Source: Xanthomonas hortorum (lineage in GTDB: Bacteria; Pseudomonadota; Gammaproteobacteria; Xanthomonadales; Xanthomonadaceae). From it: a stretch of DNA of 64,000 nt. The stretch covers positions 992,001 to 1,056,000 of the forward strand of contig NZ_CP101417.1 in NCBI RefSeq assembly GCF_024339125.1, given 5' to 3'. The translations under genes and the position numbers were made by a program. Shown here in pieces: positions 52,287 to 57,771 of the stretch. Position 1 is the stretch's first letter. Each line of letters begins with the position of its first letter. The notes under the pieces are model-generated. The model worked only from the letters and a program-made list of their open reading frames with translations. It did no database searches and had not been told where the DNA came from.

Positions 52287-52331
52287 TCGGCCAAAGGGGT
52301 CGATCGCTTCCCAGTGATGGCACCTGCTATT

Positions 52332-52355
52332 GCGCTCGCCTGCAAAGGCGAGCGC
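52332..52355. terminator. bidirectional hairpin between convergent genes
   Basis: GCGCTCGCC and GGCGAGCGC form a perfect 9-bp stem with a TGCAAA loop. It lies 45 bases after the S9 peptidase stop and about 100 bases after the SagB-like gene's end on the other strand. T tracts are weak on both sides. Confidence 0.55.
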
Positions 52356-52380
52356 TGACGCGTGCACCTCCGGCGTTCGA

Positions 52381-52408
52381 AGCACGCAGCACGCAGCACG
52401 CAGCACGC
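52381..52408. repeat. heptanucleotide tandem repeat (AGCACGC)x4
   Basis: Four exact tandem copies of AGCACGC follow CGTTCGA in the gap between convergent genes. It is a likely variable-number repeat with no coding effect. Confidence 0.93.
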
Positions 52409-52459
52409 ATAAAATCGCCTCAACGCACGATAGATGTGTCGAGGCCCGATGCTTGCTCG

Positions 52460-53668
52460 CTACTGTTGCCCGATCTCTCTGGAAGCCTCTCGATCAAGAC
52501 CGATCGACCACACTGCGCCGCCACGATCCAGCTCGGTATTTTTCATTTCCTCGGCACGCCAACCGAAGCCGCAGATGGCCAACGGGCCATCCTGCAGGCC
52601 ATCCAGGCCTAGCGCGTGTTCGATATCCACCTCGTTGATTGCCGAGGTGACAAACGCCCCTAGCCCCAAATCGGTCGCGCTCAGATAGAGGGTCTGTGCA
52701 ATATGGCCCACGTCCAGAATCATTGCGCGGTAAGCCTTGGCATGGTTCCGATATTTCCAGAAGCTGCGTAAAAACCGCGGCGCCAGAATCAACAGCACCG
52801 GCGCATCGGCAAACCAGTGCTGCCCCGACACTGCCTTGCGTGCGAATTCCGCGAGCGGCTGTGCAGGCGATGGCAAGGGGTGCAATGCATGGTCGAGCGG
52901 GCGGTAGTGATACAGGCCACTTGCCATGCCCTCGACCCGCTGTACCAGCAGATAGGTTTCGGTGGGATGCAGGCTGCCTCCCGATGGCACTGGCTTCTTC
53001 AAGAATGCGGTATCGTGCCCCACCTCGATCCGCGCGCTCGCCATGACGCTGCGTTCGAGCATCTGGGCCAATAATTCGCTTGATAGCGGGCGCTGCGTAT
53101 CGAAATTGCGGCAGGTCACGCGCCGCGCCAGCAGTTGATCGAACGTACCCGGCGTTGCGCGCGGCAACGCTATTCGGGCTTCGGCGCCTTCCTCGCCACG
53201 GCTAACAACCTCTGCCGGCGGCGCACCCAGGCGCTCCACCATGCCTTCTGCAGTCGTCAGACCTTGCGCCTCCATCGTCGCCACGCTGTCCTCGCCTTTC
53301 CAACGCGCGAAGCGGTGCCACAACGCAGCCAATGGCCACCAGCGCTGCTGCTGCACCCGCTCGTCATTGTGGCGATGCGCTGCATGCTCCGGTTGATCGC
53401 TGATCACAAGCCCCTGCTCGATCAATCCATCGAGCCAGGCCGGTGGTGGCTGCATCTGATCGATTGACCGCCAGCGCGTTGGGCTCAACTCACCCAACCA
53501 CTCGCGCTCGGCTGTGCCGACCTCCACTTCTGCATCGAGATGCGGCGCCAGTGCCAGCCATCGTGCGCGACGACGCAGCCCATCGCCGCCGGCAAGCAAG
53601 TGAGCAAGATCGAACACCGCATCGTTGCGAAGTTCGAAGAACAGCGTGGCACAGCGACGGATCTGCAT
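52460..53668 (-). CDS. SagB-like dehydrogenase of a putative peptide-modification system
   Basis: This 402-residue protein has a poorly conserved N-terminal half and a C-terminal flavin nitroreductase domain of the SagB type. Visible are RRVTCRNFDTQRPLS (FMN phosphate region), VPSGGSLHPTETYLLVQ (the SagB signature region), LYHYRPLDHALHPLP, and ILDVGHIAQTLYLSATDLGL. SagB enzymes oxidise azolines to azoles in modified peptides. TIGRFAMs define a putative peptide maturation dehydrogenase in Xanthomonas and relatives that travels with a nitrile-hydratase-leader-like peptide and a cyclase; both are the next genes here. No YcaO cyclodehydratase is present, so the chemistry is open. It is divergent from the precursor gene across 93 bases. 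Confidence 0.85.
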   Translation of the reverse strand: MQIRRCATLFFELRNDAVFDLAHLLAGGDGLRRRARWLALAPHLDAEVEVGTAEREWLGELSPTRWRSIDQMQPPPAWLDGLIEQGLVISDQPEHAAHRHNDERVQQQRWWPLAALWHRFARWKGEDSVATMEAQGLTTAEGMVERLGAPPAEVVSRGEEGAEARIALPRATPGTFDQLLARRVTCRNFDTQRPLSSELLAQMLERSVMASARIEVGHDTAFLKKPVPSGGSLHPTETYLLVQRVEGMASGLYHYRPLDHALHPLPSPAQPLAEFARKAVSGQHWFADAPVLLILAPRFLRSFWKYRNHAKAYRAMILDVGHIAQTLYLSATDLGLGAFVTSAINEVDIEHALGLDGLQDGPLAICGFGWRAEEMKNTELDRGGAVWSIGLDREASREIGQQ

Positions 53669-53761
53669 AGGAACATCTCAAGGACGCATGAGCATGGTCG
53701 ATATTGTGTCAGCTCTCCTGTCACACCACGCACCACACACCCTCATTCCGCAGGCAAGACC
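53669..53761. promoter_or_regulatory. 93-bp divergent promoter region of the dehydrogenase and precursor genes
   Basis: The gap between two oppositely oriented starts must hold both promoters. It contains TCGATATTGTGTCAGC and CACCACGCACCACACACC. No strong dyad or -35/-10 pair was recognised. The precursor's ribosome site is a weak AGGCAAG. Confidence 0.5.
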
Positions 53762-54100
53762 ATGACCGACTCAGCCGATAACGCACATCCTCCGCTGGAT
53801 GCATCCATTGCCGACAAGCTGCTGGAGCTGCTGTCCAGCGACGACGACTTCCGCGAATGCTTTCAATCTAATCCGGCTCAAGCGCTTGCCCGGATTGGCG
53901 CGGCCGGTGCGAACGCCGACGACCGCGTGCCCAGCATGGGAGAGCCATACTTCTGCATGACCACCAATCAGCTCGCCTCGAAGGAAGAGATCGCGCTGGC
54001 CCGCACCGAGTTGCATAGCTACCTGACCCAGAACGCCAATCACACCGTGATCTTTGCCTTCGAATCGGAGAGCATCCGTTCTACCCTGGTGCGCAGATAA
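53762..54100 (+). CDS. NHLP-related precursor peptide of the putative modification system
   Basis: This is a 112-residue small protein. Residues 12-46 match the nitrile-hydratase-like leader pattern: a helix LDASIADKLLELLSSDDDFR, a conserved F-x-x-NP-x-x-AL (FQSNPAQAL, 34-42) and a glycine turn. Residues 57-66 (PSMGEPYFCM) and a polar helix follow. The tail HTVIFAFESESIRSTLVRR would be the core candidate. There are two cysteines (C33, C65) and no Gly-Gly cleavage site where NHLP leaders often end. It resembles the TIGRFAMs putative modified-peptide family paired with this dehydrogenase and cyclase. Its last 61 bases overlap the 3' end of the cyclase gene on the opposite strand. ATG 53762 is the only good start. 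Confidence 0.82.
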   Translation: MTDSADNAHPPLDASIADKLLELLSSDDDFRECFQSNPAQALARIGAAGANADDRVPSMGEPYFCMTTNQLASKEEIALARTELHSYLTQNANHTVIFAFESESIRSTLVRR

Positions 54101-56691
54101 GCGGGCAGACGCGACACAGGCCACGCACGTACAAATGCCTGCGCCTGTTCGCGTGCCTCGTGGGTGCGGCCGAGTGCATGCAACGACTCGGCCATCCAGA
54201 GCTGTGCCAGCCGCGCATCGGCCACATTGAGCGGCTGCAGCGTTTGTGACGCGTTCGCCTCGATGTAAGCGCGACCTCGGCGCAGGGATAGCCAACGTGC
54301 TTGTTGCAGCGCTTCGGCATGTCGTCCGCTGTCACTCAGCAGCGCATACAGCGCAACGCGGGTCTGGAAGAGCGTGTCGTCACCGACTGGCAGGTGCGCA
54401 ATAGCCGCCGCGCGGTCGCCCGTCAGCGCAAGATGTTGGGCTTCGACAATCGCGCGAAGGTCGGCAAGTACCGGCGTTTCATGTACCAGTGCCGGCTTGA
54501 TCGCCTCAAGCGCGCGCGCAGTCAGACTATCGTCGCCGCTACGTTGTGCGTGGCTGGCCACGATCAAGACCATCGCTGCATTGTCCTGCTGGTTCGCCAT
54601 CGCCAACCTGTCGTCGGTTACTGCTGATGTCAACCGATCGAACGTCGGCTTCAGCTTGGTTGGGGTGGCCGGATCGGTTAGGGCGTCCGTCGTCAACGCA
54701 ATGACCAGGAACTGCCGATAAAGGAAATCGTCGGCCTGCTTGCTACGCGTCAGAGCTTGCGCAATGGAAGCGCGCGCAGCCATCCAGTCGGCCTGATCGA
54801 TCGCAATACTGGTGCGGTCGATCAACGGCACCACATCGTCGTTGACATAGCCGCTCCTCACGATCGTATCGAGCGCTTGCTGTGCTTCGGCGTAGCGATT
54901 CAGTGACGCCAACGCGCTGGCCCGCCGCCGTAGCGGACCGGCGCGATCAACGTCATCAGGGACAAAATACTTTAATGCGGCCTCGGCTTTTCCCTGAGCC
55001 AGCAAAATGCGTCCAACCCGATCCGTGGCGATCGCACGTAGCGGATCCTGCGGAACATCGGCTGCCTGCGCATAGGGAAGCGCCTCGGCAAAACGATTGG
55101 CAACGAATAGATGCCAGGAGGCATTGGCGGTTCCAGCGAAGTTGTCCGGATACAGCGATGCGAGGGTTCGCCACAGCGGCAACGCTTTCTCGGGCGCACG
55201 CAACTCGGCCGCCCAGGCATCCAGATAGAGCTGGTCACGCTCCGGCAAACGCTGGCGGAAACGGATCGCTTGATCCAGATACGGCAGCGCGCCATCGCGG
55301 TTGGAGATGGCGACCTTGATGCGTGCTGCGCCCAGATAGGCCAAGGCAAATTCCGGGTCGATGCCAACCGCGCGCTCGAAGAGTTCCATGCCTTGGCTCC
55401 ACTGGCCTTTCACCGTGGCGTCGACACCGAGGGCATAGGCACGCAATGCATCCAGGCTTGAGGTTGTGACGGCGGGCAATGGCACCGAATGCTTGTCGAT
55501 CGAAGCGACAACTTCGCCAAGTCCCTGCCTCAACTTACGGGTGACCTGATCTACGGACGACAGCGCGGACGGTAAGCCATCGCCTTGCACAAACTCCGAG
55601 TACACCGTGGTCTGCGTGCGTGGATCCACCAACTCCACACTGAAGCGGAGCTTGCCCCCAATCTCGGCCACAGTCGGCAGAATGACTGCACTGGCGCCAT
55701 CGCGCATGGCCACTTCCGAGGCGATGGCACGATCGACGACAACGCTGTCCGGATCGCGTTTCATCCGGGTCATTGTGTCGCGCACTTTCATATCGCTCAG
55801 GACATTGACGTAGCGCGACTGCTCCAGGCTGATACGTAGCGCCTGCTCCAGCGAACTGTCGAGCAGCGTATTGCCCGTCAGATTGCGCAAGTCGCCCACC
55901 ACCACCCAGCCGCGTTCGGCGAAAGCGATCGCGGGCTCGGCGCGAGTGAAAAACCACACCGACACACAGACAGTGACGACCAACAACGTTTCTGCCAACA
56001 GCGCTGCCGGCCGGCGCCATAACGGAATATCCCGCCATGCCTTGGGCGAATGCCTGGGCGCGCGCAGCGGCGTGACATCGATCTCGCCGACCTCGTAAAT
56101 CTCCATTGGCGTAGGCACGCCCTTGAAGCGCCAGCGACCGTGGGATTTCCACAACAGTCGCTCAGCATGCGTGCCCAGTTCGCGCGCAGCACGATGCGTC
56201 AGCGACTCGGCCACCGCCGAGATCAGGATCTGCCCGGGCCGTGCCATCGACATCAGGCGGGCGGCGGTGGGCTTGGCCAGGCCTTCCACTTCCAGCGGTT
56301 TGGCGCCGATGCTCACCGCTTCGTCGCTGTTGCGCCAAGTCAGCACTTCGCCCACGTGCAGACCCTGGCGCGCGCATAGCGTCAGCGCGCGGGCATCGCC
56401 CATCGCCTTGAGTCCACGTGCGTAATCCAGTGCGAAGCCCAGGCCATCGATGGGGCGATCGAACAGCAGCAACAGCCCGTCCGAGCGGTCGATCAGACGG
56501 CCGCGCCATTGCTGCTGCAGTTTGACCACCAGACGGTCATGCTCGCGGAACAATGCGGCGGCGGCGTTGTCACCGATACGTTCGACCAGTGCGGTGGAAT
56601 CGCATAGATCGGTCAACAGCAAGGTGCGCAGACGCGGCGCCTGGATCGCTTCCGACGACGCATCCTTGCGTGCGTGGGTGCGCGTGCTCAT
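54040..56691 (-). CDS. class III nucleotide cyclase with membrane helix and TPR-like domain (cGMP synthase homologue)
   Basis: This 883-residue protein opens with a class III cyclase homology domain: LLLTDLCDSTALVERIG with metal-binding D28, RSDGLLLLFDRPIDGL with D71, and the SIGAKPLEVEGLAKPTAARL loop. A single membrane helix (LLAETLLVVTVCVSVWFF, about 230-250) follows. A periplasmic part has a FlgO-like segment (VVVGDLRNLTGNTLLDSSLE) and a long TPR-type repeat region. X. campestris XC_0250 is the described guanylate cyclase of this build, next to XC_0249 as here. TIGRFAMs call it a peptide-modification-system cyclase. It ends inside the precursor gene on the other strand and starts three bases after the GGDEF gene stop. 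Confidence 0.85.
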   Translation of the reverse strand: MSTRTHARKDASSEAIQAPRLRTLLLTDLCDSTALVERIGDNAAAALFREHDRLVVKLQQQWRGRLIDRSDGLLLLFDRPIDGLGFALDYARGLKAMGDARALTLCARQGLHVGEVLTWRNSDEAVSIGAKPLEVEGLAKPTAARLMSMARPGQILISAVAESLTHRAARELGTHAERLLWKSHGRWRFKGVPTPMEIYEVGEIDVTPLRAPRHSPKAWRDIPLWRRPAALLAETLLVVTVCVSVWFFTRAEPAIAFAERGWVVVGDLRNLTGNTLLDSSLEQALRISLEQSRYVNVLSDMKVRDTMTRMKRDPDSVVVDRAIASEVAMRDGASAVILPTVAEIGGKLRFSVELVDPRTQTTVYSEFVQGDGLPSALSSVDQVTRKLRQGLGEVVASIDKHSVPLPAVTTSSLDALRAYALGVDATVKGQWSQGMELFERAVGIDPEFALAYLGAARIKVAISNRDGALPYLDQAIRFRQRLPERDQLYLDAWAAELRAPEKALPLWRTLASLYPDNFAGTANASWHLFVANRFAEALPYAQAADVPQDPLRAIATDRVGRILLAQGKAEAALKYFVPDDVDRAGPLRRRASALASLNRYAEAQQALDTIVRSGYVNDDVVPLIDRTSIAIDQADWMAARASIAQALTRSKQADDFLYRQFLVIALTTDALTDPATPTKLKPTFDRLTSAVTDDRLAMANQQDNAAMVLIVASHAQRSGDDSLTARALEAIKPALVHETPVLADLRAIVEAQHLALTGDRAAAIAHLPVGDDTLFQTRVALYALLSDSGRHAEALQQARWLSLRRGRAYIEANASQTLQPLNVADARLAQLWMAESLHALGRTHEAREQAQAFVRAWPVSRLPAYLRTRVERMLSDSKAKITV

Positions 56692-56694
56692 TGC

Positions 56695-57771
56695 TCAGTG
56701 ATTGCCAGAGGCGAGCGTGTTACCCGATACCAGCGTACTGCCCGGCGCAGGTGCTTCGTGCATGCACAACACGTTACCGCCCTGGCGCTTGGCCTGGTAC
56801 AACGCGCTATCGGCCAGCGTGTACCAGTCGTTCCATGCCGCATCCGCATCGATCATGCACAGGCCAAGACTGACCGAGCAGCCTTGCTCGCTCTGGTTGT
56901 TTCCCAGGCGTGCTTCTACTGCGCGCACGATGCATTCGCCGATGTGGTGCATCAGTTCCCGCGTGCCTTGCGCGACCAGCACGCAGAATTCGTCGCCGCC
57001 CAGCCGGCAGGCCAGATCGCCATCGGCGATCACCGAGCGCAGTGCATGGGCAACGTTCTGCAGCACACGGTCACCGGCCAGATGACCGAATTCGTCATTG
57101 ATGCGCTTGAAACGGTCGCAATCGATCAGGATCAGGCCTACACCGGGCACCGCGCCGGAACGCCGACATTCCTGCAGATGCAGCGCCAGACCGCGGCGGT
57201 TGTGCAGGCCGGTGAGCTCGTCGGTGCGACTCAACTCTTCGGTGTGGTTGAGTTTGTGCGAGGTGACATAGAGATTGTCCAGCGCCGCTTCCAGATCGTG
57301 GTTGCGACGGCGCAGCTGACGGATCAGCAACTGCTCGTTGTTGACCACACGCACGATGGAGCGGCGCAGAAAATGCGCCACCATCGACGGGTCGTGATCG
57401 ACCAGGCGCTGAAAATCGTCGTGGGCCAGTTCGATCAAACGGCTGTCGGTGGAGGCACTGGCGCCGGCACTGCGTGCGTGGTCGCCGATCAGCAAGCCAA
57501 GTTCGCCGAAGAATTCGCCCGGGCCCAGATGCTTGAGCATCAGGTCCTCGCCAAAATCCAGATCGATCTGGCCGCTGACAACGATGAACATCTGCGTGCC
57601 CACGGCACCACGCTCGAACAGCGCCTGGCCCGCCGCCAACTCGCGCGCACGGCCGAAGCGGGCGAAAAACGCCAGCTCTTCGGCAGTCATCAGCGCATGC
57701 AGCCCGTCGGACAACGTTTTGGCAACGCCTCCAGTCGGTTCGACCGCGCCTGCGGTGTTGTGGCAAGTCAT
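56695..57771 (-). CDS. cyclic-nucleotide-binding GGDEF diguanylate cyclase
   Basis: This 358-residue protein has an N-terminal cNMP-binding domain (about 25-145), with the phosphate-binding cassette FFGELGLLIGDHARSAGAS at 87-105. A coiled linker (NEQLLIRQLRRRNHDLEAAL) leads to a C-terminal GGDEF domain with intact active site LGGDEF (258-262). It should make c-di-GMP in response to a bound cyclic nucleotide. The X. campestris homologue XC_0249 was reported to bind cGMP and to affect virulence and biofilm. No RxxD inhibitory site is seen at the usual place before GGDEF. The cyclase gene follows after three bases, so signal maker and receiver are cotranscribed. Confidence 0.92.
   Translation of the reverse strand: MTCHNTAGAVEPTGGVAKTLSDGLHALMTAEELAFFARFGRARELAAGQALFERGAVGTQMFIVVSGQIDLDFGEDLMLKHLGPGEFFGELGLLIGDHARSAGASASTDSRLIELAHDDFQRLVDHDPSMVAHFLRRSIVRVVNNEQLLIRQLRRRNHDLEAALDNLYVTSHKLNHTEELSRTDELTGLHNRRGLALHLQECRRSGAVPGVGLILIDCDRFKRINDEFGHLAGDRVLQNVAHALRSVIADGDLACRLGGDEFCVLVAQGTRELMHHIGECIVRAVEARLGNNQSEQGCSVSLGLCMIDADAAWNDWYTLADSALYQAKRQGGNVLCMHEAPAPGSTLVSGNTLASGNH

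Follow-up and report, generated by a model that had tools for sequence, protein, structure and literature searches.

In the genome of Xanthomonas hortorum (assembly GCF_024339125.1, contig NZ_CP101417.1, positions 992,001 to 1,056,000; these 64,000 nucleotides are referred to here as the window), a receptor-like class III guanylate cyclase lies beside a short precursor of a ribosomally synthesized and post-translationally modified peptide (RiPP) and a dehydrogenase predicted to modify it. Comparison with related loci indicates that the half of the cyclase built of tetratricopeptide repeats (TPR), the peptide and the dehydrogenase together form an allelic cassette, most likely encoding a private peptide signal and its receptor. 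The locus appears to bear the genetic signature of an allelic signal-receptor locus in which a RiPP-type peptide is paired with a receptor-like guanylate cyclase. According to An et al. 2013 (PMC3770947), the X. campestris cyclase converts GTP to cyclic GMP (cGMP), the partner protein XC_0249 binds cGMP and then makes more cyclic di-GMP (c-di-GMP), and both proteins affect biofilm and virulence; the link to biofilm and virulence is taken from that study and not from the present analysis. The main text of the same paper names no trigger of cGMP synthesis in Xanthomonas, calls the TPR domain uncharacterized, and does not contain the words peptide, membrane, periplasm or dehydrogenase or any word beginning with allel-. 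With the protein families already named and the cGMP half already studied, what is new here is the peptide-cyclase link and the allelic block, of which a search of the open-access literature returned no description. A candidate ligand, a maturation enzyme and a receptor domain are all encoded within 3.6 kb, and specificity classes can be predicted for them.

All four open reading frames listed in the preliminary description of this DNA are present, and the dehydrogenase, peptide and cyclase score far above their NCBIfam cut-offs. Among named organisms, X. hortorum has the closest relatives of the genes at this locus. The genes are ordered GGDEF protein (minus strand), cyclase (minus), peptide (plus) and dehydrogenase (minus). 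The peptide gene, whose strand had gone unmentioned, is thus divergent (head to head) from the dehydrogenase gene and convergent with the cyclase gene. The features are as follows, in window coordinates.

52287..55884: exchange cassette of about 3.6 kb, comprising the sensor half, the peptide and the dehydrogenase; edges by homology to other loci
52460..53668, minus strand: SagB/ThcOx-like dehydrogenase, predicted peptide modifier (TIGR04511, 575 bits, cut-off 240)
53762..54100, plus strand: RiPP precursor of 112 residues related to nitrile hydratase leader peptide (NHLP) proteins, with a leader-like half (residues 1-47) and a type-specific part (residues 48-112) (TIGR04509, 115.4 bits, cut-off 34)
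54040..54100: tail-to-tail overlap of 61 bases between the cyclase and peptide genes
54040..56691, minus strand: receptor-like class III guanylate cyclase, relative of XC_0250 (TIGR04510, 1179 bits, cut-off 400)
54040..55884, minus strand: hypervariable C-terminal sensor of the cyclase (about residue 270 to the end), predicted periplasmic
55948..56004, minus strand: single predicted transmembrane helix of the cyclase (residues 230-248), N-terminus predicted inside
56047..56691, minus strand: constant catalytic domain of the cyclase (residues 1-215), predicted cytoplasmic
56695..57771, minus strand: cyclic nucleotide monophosphate (cNMP)-binding GGDEF diguanylate cyclase, relative of XC_0249 (Pfam cNMP_binding and GGDEF)

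The cassette edges in the window were transferred from six Xanthomonas pairs, none of which contains the window itself.

The types were defined in 28 of 29 Xanthomonas loci, giving 378 pairs; the broken locus L187 was excluded, and only the larger piece of the split dehydrogenase of L065 entered the identities. The GGDEF protein had a mean pairwise identity of 89.6% and the catalytic domain one of 90.6%, and five flanking genes averaged 85-95%. The corresponding means were 51.7% and 38.2% for the two parts of the TPR half (the second part, TPR2, having a median of 20%), 41.5% for the peptide core (median 26%) and 60% for the catalytic part of the dehydrogenase. Clustering at 60% identity divided the sensors into six types (A with 15 loci, B with 6, C with 4, and D, E and F with 1 each), and the peptide cores fell into the identical six types in 28 of 28 loci. 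The dehydrogenase types agree with the sensor types, except that F joins C at 60% and the dehydrogenase of L190 is truncated. One type B and one type D locus have catalytic domains that are 100% identical and GGDEF proteins that are 99% identical. The same contrast was found in three further genera, with mean identities of 69-93% for the catalytic domain, 26-37% for TPR2 and 30-33% for the peptide core. The suggestion of the preliminary description that the peptide is a signal for cGMP synthesis therefore gains new support: the types of peptide and sensor are locked together, and the catalytic domain does not share in them.

At the DNA level, the types correspond to a bounded block. In six Xanthomonas pairs of different type, the DNA aligned at 84-97% up to cyclase codon ~270-300 (window numbering), after which the alignment was lost; it was regained at 88-99% from the end of the gene that follows the dehydrogenase (pairs L092/L128 and L066/L189 included). 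Within the gap, one short match of ~200 bp (68% identity) remained in the dehydrogenase of three of the six pairs, in alignments that list pieces above 150 bp. A Xanthomonas pair of the same type aligned throughout. In L092/L128, the flanks are 97.9%, the catalytic domain 100% and the GGDEF protein 99% identical, with TPR2 at 16% and the peptide core at 9%. A like gap was present in three pairs of a second genus, where the left edges lie at codons ~300-390, alignment was regained inside the dehydrogenase in L061/L095, and a same-type pair again aligned throughout. On a tree of four flanking genes and 27 taxa (L065 was left out for lack of flanks), the types required 10 changes (minimum 5; shuffled mean 12.1; a value as low in 14 of 200 shuffles). 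Types also differed in two of four same-species protein pairs, with species names as given in the sources: a Lysobacter enzymogenes pair (catalytic domain 100%, TPR2 32%) and X. translucens against its pathovar poae (96% and 31%). The X. sacchari and X. campestris pairs showed no type difference. A neighboring S9 peptidase was considered as a part of the cassette and rejected, as it lies outside the block and was not found in the fetched stretch of many loci.

The preliminary description had also proposed that the trio grouped by TIGRFAM and the pair matching XC_0250 and XC_0249 constitute one system, and co-occurrence upheld this throughout the order. Among 348 genomes of the order Xanthomonadales, searched with the curated profile cut-offs, the cyclase, peptide and dehydrogenase each exceeded the cut-off in 101, and all three did so in 99 of the 103 genomes having any. 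In G277 the peptide is below the cut-off, in G261 the cyclase is cut by a contig end, and G292 holds remnants. The pattern named as refuting in the preliminary description, a cyclase and GGDEF protein that lack both peptide and dehydrogenase in most lineages, did not hold: the combination was seen in one of the 101 cyclase genomes (G278). The GGDEF protein (E <= 1e-40) was detected in 106 genomes, namely 100 of the 101 cyclase genomes (all but G091), G261 and five others; it stands without a cyclase above cut-off in G106, G111, G256, G233 and G030. Its gene adjoins that of the cyclase in the window and in 94 of the 101 cyclase genomes. The tight unit thus consists of cyclase, peptide and dehydrogenase, to which the GGDEF effector is joined closely but less strictly. 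In a sample of the phylum, the peptide exceeded the cut-off in 5 of 249 genomes, all from the same order, with one sub-cut-off match elsewhere; a contig scan with the peptide as query extended to five close relatives.

Within the loci fetched, a peptide gene lies downstream of 120 of the 124 cyclases scoring above 800 bits. It is convergent with the cyclase gene in all 120 of these modules and overlaps it in 62. Outside the 120 stand L106 (at a contig end) and L118, L161 and L169, which have no downstream peptide, as well as partial cyclases below 800 bits; peptide matches below 30 bits were discarded. Four loci contain two cyclase-peptide-dehydrogenase units in tandem that share one GGDEF gene, and within one genome the two units are 16-26% identical in TPR2 and 5-22% in the peptide core.

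Some loci depart from this plan. L161 (4774-11053, in G091) has five near-identical tandem peptides upstream of its dehydrogenase and cyclase, so it is not covered by the count of convergent genes. The N-terminal domain of its cyclase is strongly diverged, with a TIGR04510 match from position 126 and both Asp positions present by eye, and no GGDEF partner was found in G091 at E <= 1e-40. In L154 (1052-17932, in G237), nine or ten peptide genes are arrayed over the two strands; this locus also has four dehydrogenase genes with a fifth piece, and a second cyclase that is truncated. Decaying copies are present in Xanthomonas: the dehydrogenase is split by an insertion of ~13 kb in L065 and truncated in L190; the cyclase, peptide and dehydrogenase are all broken in L187, where the GGDEF gene is intact; and L167 consists of remnants in X. 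populi.

Coupling between the parts was assessed in the 111 of 120 modules that were complete enough, distant relatives being those with catalytic and GGDEF identity below 85%. When relatives were ranked by peptide core, the closest distant partner of the sensor stood among the top 5% in 74% of cases; ranked by the catalytic part of the dehydrogenase, it did so in 77%. The share was 55% for ranking by the alpha/beta segment of the sensor itself, 37% with the GGDEF protein and 29% with the catalytic domain of the very same protein. Sensor and peptide shared their best partner in 41 of 111 modules, compared with at most 4 in 100 permutations. In the window, the sensor, peptide and dehydrogenase all point to a locus of a foreign genus, L082; despite this foreign partner of the cassette, the catalytic domain is 94% identical to those of other Xanthomonas types. 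L115, L119 and L127 are among the best partners of type D, and L104 is among those of type C. Types thus recur in other genera. Within types A, B and C, the ratio of nonsynonymous to synonymous divergence (dN/dS), counted after excluding pairs with saturated or very low dS, came to 0.10-0.14 over the peptide as a whole, reached up to 0.19 in the second half of the peptide, and was 0.11-0.14 in TPR2. These low values characterize the peptide and TPR2 as constrained, real proteins under purifying selection. Mean dS within types was 0.87-1.75 for segments of the cassette versus 0.46-0.57 for the catalytic domain and GGDEF protein. Such an excess is as expected for alleles older than the genomes that carry them, and may reflect balancing selection or repeated import.

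The cyclase itself is a receptor-like chimera: its catalytic half is constant, a single predicted membrane helix follows, and the TPR half, placed in the periplasm by prediction, is hypervariable. The N-terminal domain resembles the class III cyclases Ma1120 and Rv1900c in sequence and predicted fold. The Pfam class III cyclase model gave no match to the window protein at E 0.1; its cyclase fold is supported by TIGR04510, by sequence matches in PDB and by the predicted model. D28, D41, D71 and R145 of the catalytic domain (56047-56691) are invariant in 102 sequences. D41 and D71 are metal ligands and L157/A161 the transition-state positions in the account of An et al. (PMC3770947), and D28, read by eye, appears to align with the first-metal motif of Ma1120. 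One hydrophobic helix with its N-terminus inside is predicted after the catalytic domain in 120 of 120 modules, starting at residues 211-281. The mean net charge is +3.1 before this helix and ~0 after it, and is higher before than after in all 120 modules; by the positive-inside rule, this contrast predicts a periplasmic location for the remainder of the cyclase. The second-best hydrophobic stretches have a median of 1.25 and are located in folded domains. A second stretch with a mean of at least 1.6 was present in 11 of 120 cyclases, each time inside the catalytic or TPR part by position, and these stretches are read as soluble core. The C-terminal half consists of an alpha/beta segment followed by a TPR superhelix (AlphaFold mean predicted local distance difference test score 87, predicted template modeling score 0.63), the latter score leaving the orientation of the cyclase domains uncertain.

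Sensors of this kind also occur apart from a cyclase. In L101 (10094-11902) and L103 (10131-11927), a membrane-anchored sensor without a cyclase domain directly follows the dehydrogenase; besides each other, the nearest relatives of these extra sensors are the sensors of L109 and L080 (47-50%), and they may represent a displaced older allele. In L170 (2486-4372, in G073), a like sensor, at 58% to the cyclase L159 of the same genome, follows what appears by eye to be a Ser/Thr kinase domain. From this kinase-linked copy, the sensor may be a movable receptor module.

The downstream half agrees with the X. campestris pathway. All five cGMP-contact residues of XC_0249 (F73, E90, H98, N145 and E146) are found at the same positions in the window GGDEF protein; of these, E146 is kept in 99 of 99 relatives and N145 in 68. 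The nearest solved chain to this protein is 5h5o (E 1.8e-76). Proteins named as X. campestris, with 886 residues as in XC_0250, are 84% identical to the window cyclase over the full length, and the allele studied by An et al. is probably type A.

The dehydrogenase has the azoline-oxidase (nitroreductase) fold of ThcOx and McbC, with a Lys-Tyr pair aligned with that of ThcOx. Its N-terminal part, which bears on the question of a RiPP recognition element, aligns only within whole-chain matches and loosely. The nitroreductase fold is common to ThcOx, McbC and BmdC, but the YcaO cyclodehydratase is missing here: PF02624 gave 0 matches in the window's genome, and the same search was positive in 5 of 14 control genomes. 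The locus was accordingly not assigned to the YcaO-partnered azoline-forming RiPP systems. The earlier expectation that the modification chemistry would be new is unproven; the fold and the Lys-Tyr pair are those of azoline oxidases, but no YcaO was found in the genome. The accompanying remark that YcaO and a dedicated exporter are lacking held for YcaO in the genome and for an exporter in the block, and has to be qualified by three C39-peptidase genes elsewhere in the genome, whose open frames of 734-748 codons have the size of ATP-binding cassette (ABC) exporters. A C39 match was found in 45 of 53 peptide-carrying versus 13 of 27 peptide-lacking genomes of the family, a comparison that covers 53 of 77 family carriers and counts short stand-alone frames among its matches. 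In eight loci that form a sub-kind (L115, L119, L127, L128, L156-L158 and L160), the dehydrogenase is on the strand of the peptide, and the C-terminal end of the peptide in these loci is mostly short and hydrophobic.

A working model can be formulated on this basis. The dehydrogenase is predicted to bind the leader of the peptide and oxidize its type-specific C-terminal part. The product would then reach the periplasm or the outside and be bound by the TPR domain of matching type, whose predicted location is periplasmic; cyclase activity would thereby be altered across the membrane. As in X. campestris, the cGMP made would bind the cNMP domain of the GGDEF protein, and c-di-GMP synthesis would be raised, with consequences for biofilm and gene expression (An et al. 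2013, PMC3770947). Since peptide type is followed by the sensor but by neither the catalytic domain nor the GGDEF protein, a peptide acting in this system should exert its effect via the sensor, which implies action across the inner membrane. We accordingly infer modification and export of the peptide and its binding by the cognate sensor.

Several results weigh against this model. The link between peptide and cyclase is drawn entirely from genetics and sequence. Once catalytic and GGDEF distances are removed, the partial correlation between sensor and peptide is a modest 0.31 (300 permutations gave at most 0.13), and the nearest-partner test on the residuals is weak (top 5% in 23%, the same partner in 2 of 111). 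Because the sensor, peptide and dehydrogenase adjoin one another, linkage by itself would account for some of their joint exchange. Within types, dN/dS gave no sign of positive selection, and in a third genus three pairs, their types unassigned, aligned without a break across the region. The genome G278 has kept the cyclase and GGDEF protein without the peptide and dehydrogenase, and in L065 and L190 the cyclase and peptide look intact while the dehydrogenase is split or truncated. No column of the C-terminal half of the peptide is invariant among 129 aligned peptides (the top one is a Lys at 87%). The exchanged block has no exporter gene, and a C39 exporter was rejected as the required carrier, since 8 of the 53 peptide-carrying genomes have no C39 match.

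The modest partial correlation and the weak residual test are what might be expected if the sensor tracked an external ligand, with the peptide and dehydrogenase riding along without acting on it, and genes that touch or overlap (62 of 120) would tend to be taken together by one recombination tract. To such pure linkage we assign only a small chance: at similar distance, the coupling of the sensor is stronger with the dehydrogenase (77%) than with the alpha/beta segment (55%) or the catalytic domain (29%) of the same protein, and all three genes co-occur, are lost and are duplicated together, often with common foreign-genus partners. Also unlikely is a bacteriocin-like role for the peptide, with the sensor acting as the cognate detector of this weapon or as the immunity factor against it, in which case the locus would serve kin sorting instead of cell counting. 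Allelic cassettes and the displaced old sensors, of another type, in L101 and L103 would fit toxin/immunity loci, as would the peptide arrays of L154 and L161; yet the cassette contains neither a separate immunity gene nor an exporter gene, a cyclase output is fused to the sensor, and by far the most loci carry a single peptide for each cyclase.

The missing exporter gene and the relation of the leader-like N-terminal half to NHLP proteins would also suit regulation of the cyclase or the GGDEF protein from within the cell, by a peptide that never leaves the cytoplasm. This is very improbable in our estimation, as only the predicted periplasmic part follows the peptide type and the catalytic domain and GGDEF protein do not. 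Short peptides can also be precursors of redox cofactors, as PqqA is of pyrroloquinoline quinone (PQQ), and an oxidase-like enzyme of the nitroreductase family beside a short peptide recalls that arrangement, with the sensor reading the level of the cofactor. A cofactor precursor should, however, keep its core, and a median core identity of 26% within one genus makes this reading extremely improbable.

The signal-receptor interpretation finds its closest parallels in Gram-positive bacteria, in the agr system of Staphylococcus, ComQXPA of Bacillus and the Com pherotypes of Streptococcus, which mostly use histidine kinases. The likeness lies in a constant output joined to a hypervariable sensor, in a peptide and processing enzyme that are exchanged together in matched types, and in types that cross the tree and vary within species. 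Unlike in these systems, the receptor candidate here comes from Gammaproteobacteria and is a guanylate cyclase whose TPR sensor is predicted to be periplasmic. Eukaryotic receptor guanylyl cyclases, such as the natriuretic peptide receptors, are single-pass proteins with an outer peptide-sensing domain. The present cyclase would share this single-pass plan and the sensing of a peptide outside, but the architecture is unrelated, with the catalytic domain N-terminal and the TPR sensor C-terminal. If the signal-receptor interpretation is true, a peptide-gated guanylate cyclase would be a new receptor class, of which there is a real chance, and the loci would offer a natural set of matched signal-receptor pairs. 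It would also account for the presence of a cyclase in a curated peptide modification family: NCBIfam places TIGR04509, TIGR04510 and TIGR04511 in a "putative peptide modification system" and names the cyclase as a modification part, which is read here as receptor and output. On balance, we lean slightly toward a wider proposal, that these loci constitute a Gram-negative self/non-self language of strain-specific oxidized peptides and matched receptor cyclases, whose types are kept by selection, whose 3.6-kb cassettes are swapped among plant pathogens, Lysobacter and environmental relatives, and which controls the onset of biofilm behavior through cGMP and c-di-GMP. Such a language would give bacteria an equivalent of the receptor guanylate cyclases through which animals sense peptide hormones.

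Pycsar systems likewise set a class III cyclase beside an effector with a cNMP domain, but the effector here is a GGDEF enzyme. The cNMP domain of the GGDEF protein gave four weak PADLOC matches, to Pycsar effectors and PycC; the cyclase (at E 0.01), peptide and dehydrogenase had no PADLOC match, and a Pycsar or defense assignment was rejected. Plasmid relatives of the dehydrogenase show 27-32% identity among the 20 matches listed of 219. They were rejected as counterparts of the cassette; of the best two regions, one has the gene in an operon with AMP-binding and phosphopantetheinyl-transferase genes, and the record of the other is unannotated. Relatives of the dehydrogenase at 54-60% are named as Streptomyces, Kitasatospora and Kribbella (P0138, P0144, P0157, P0162, P0170, P0181, P0192 and P0216).

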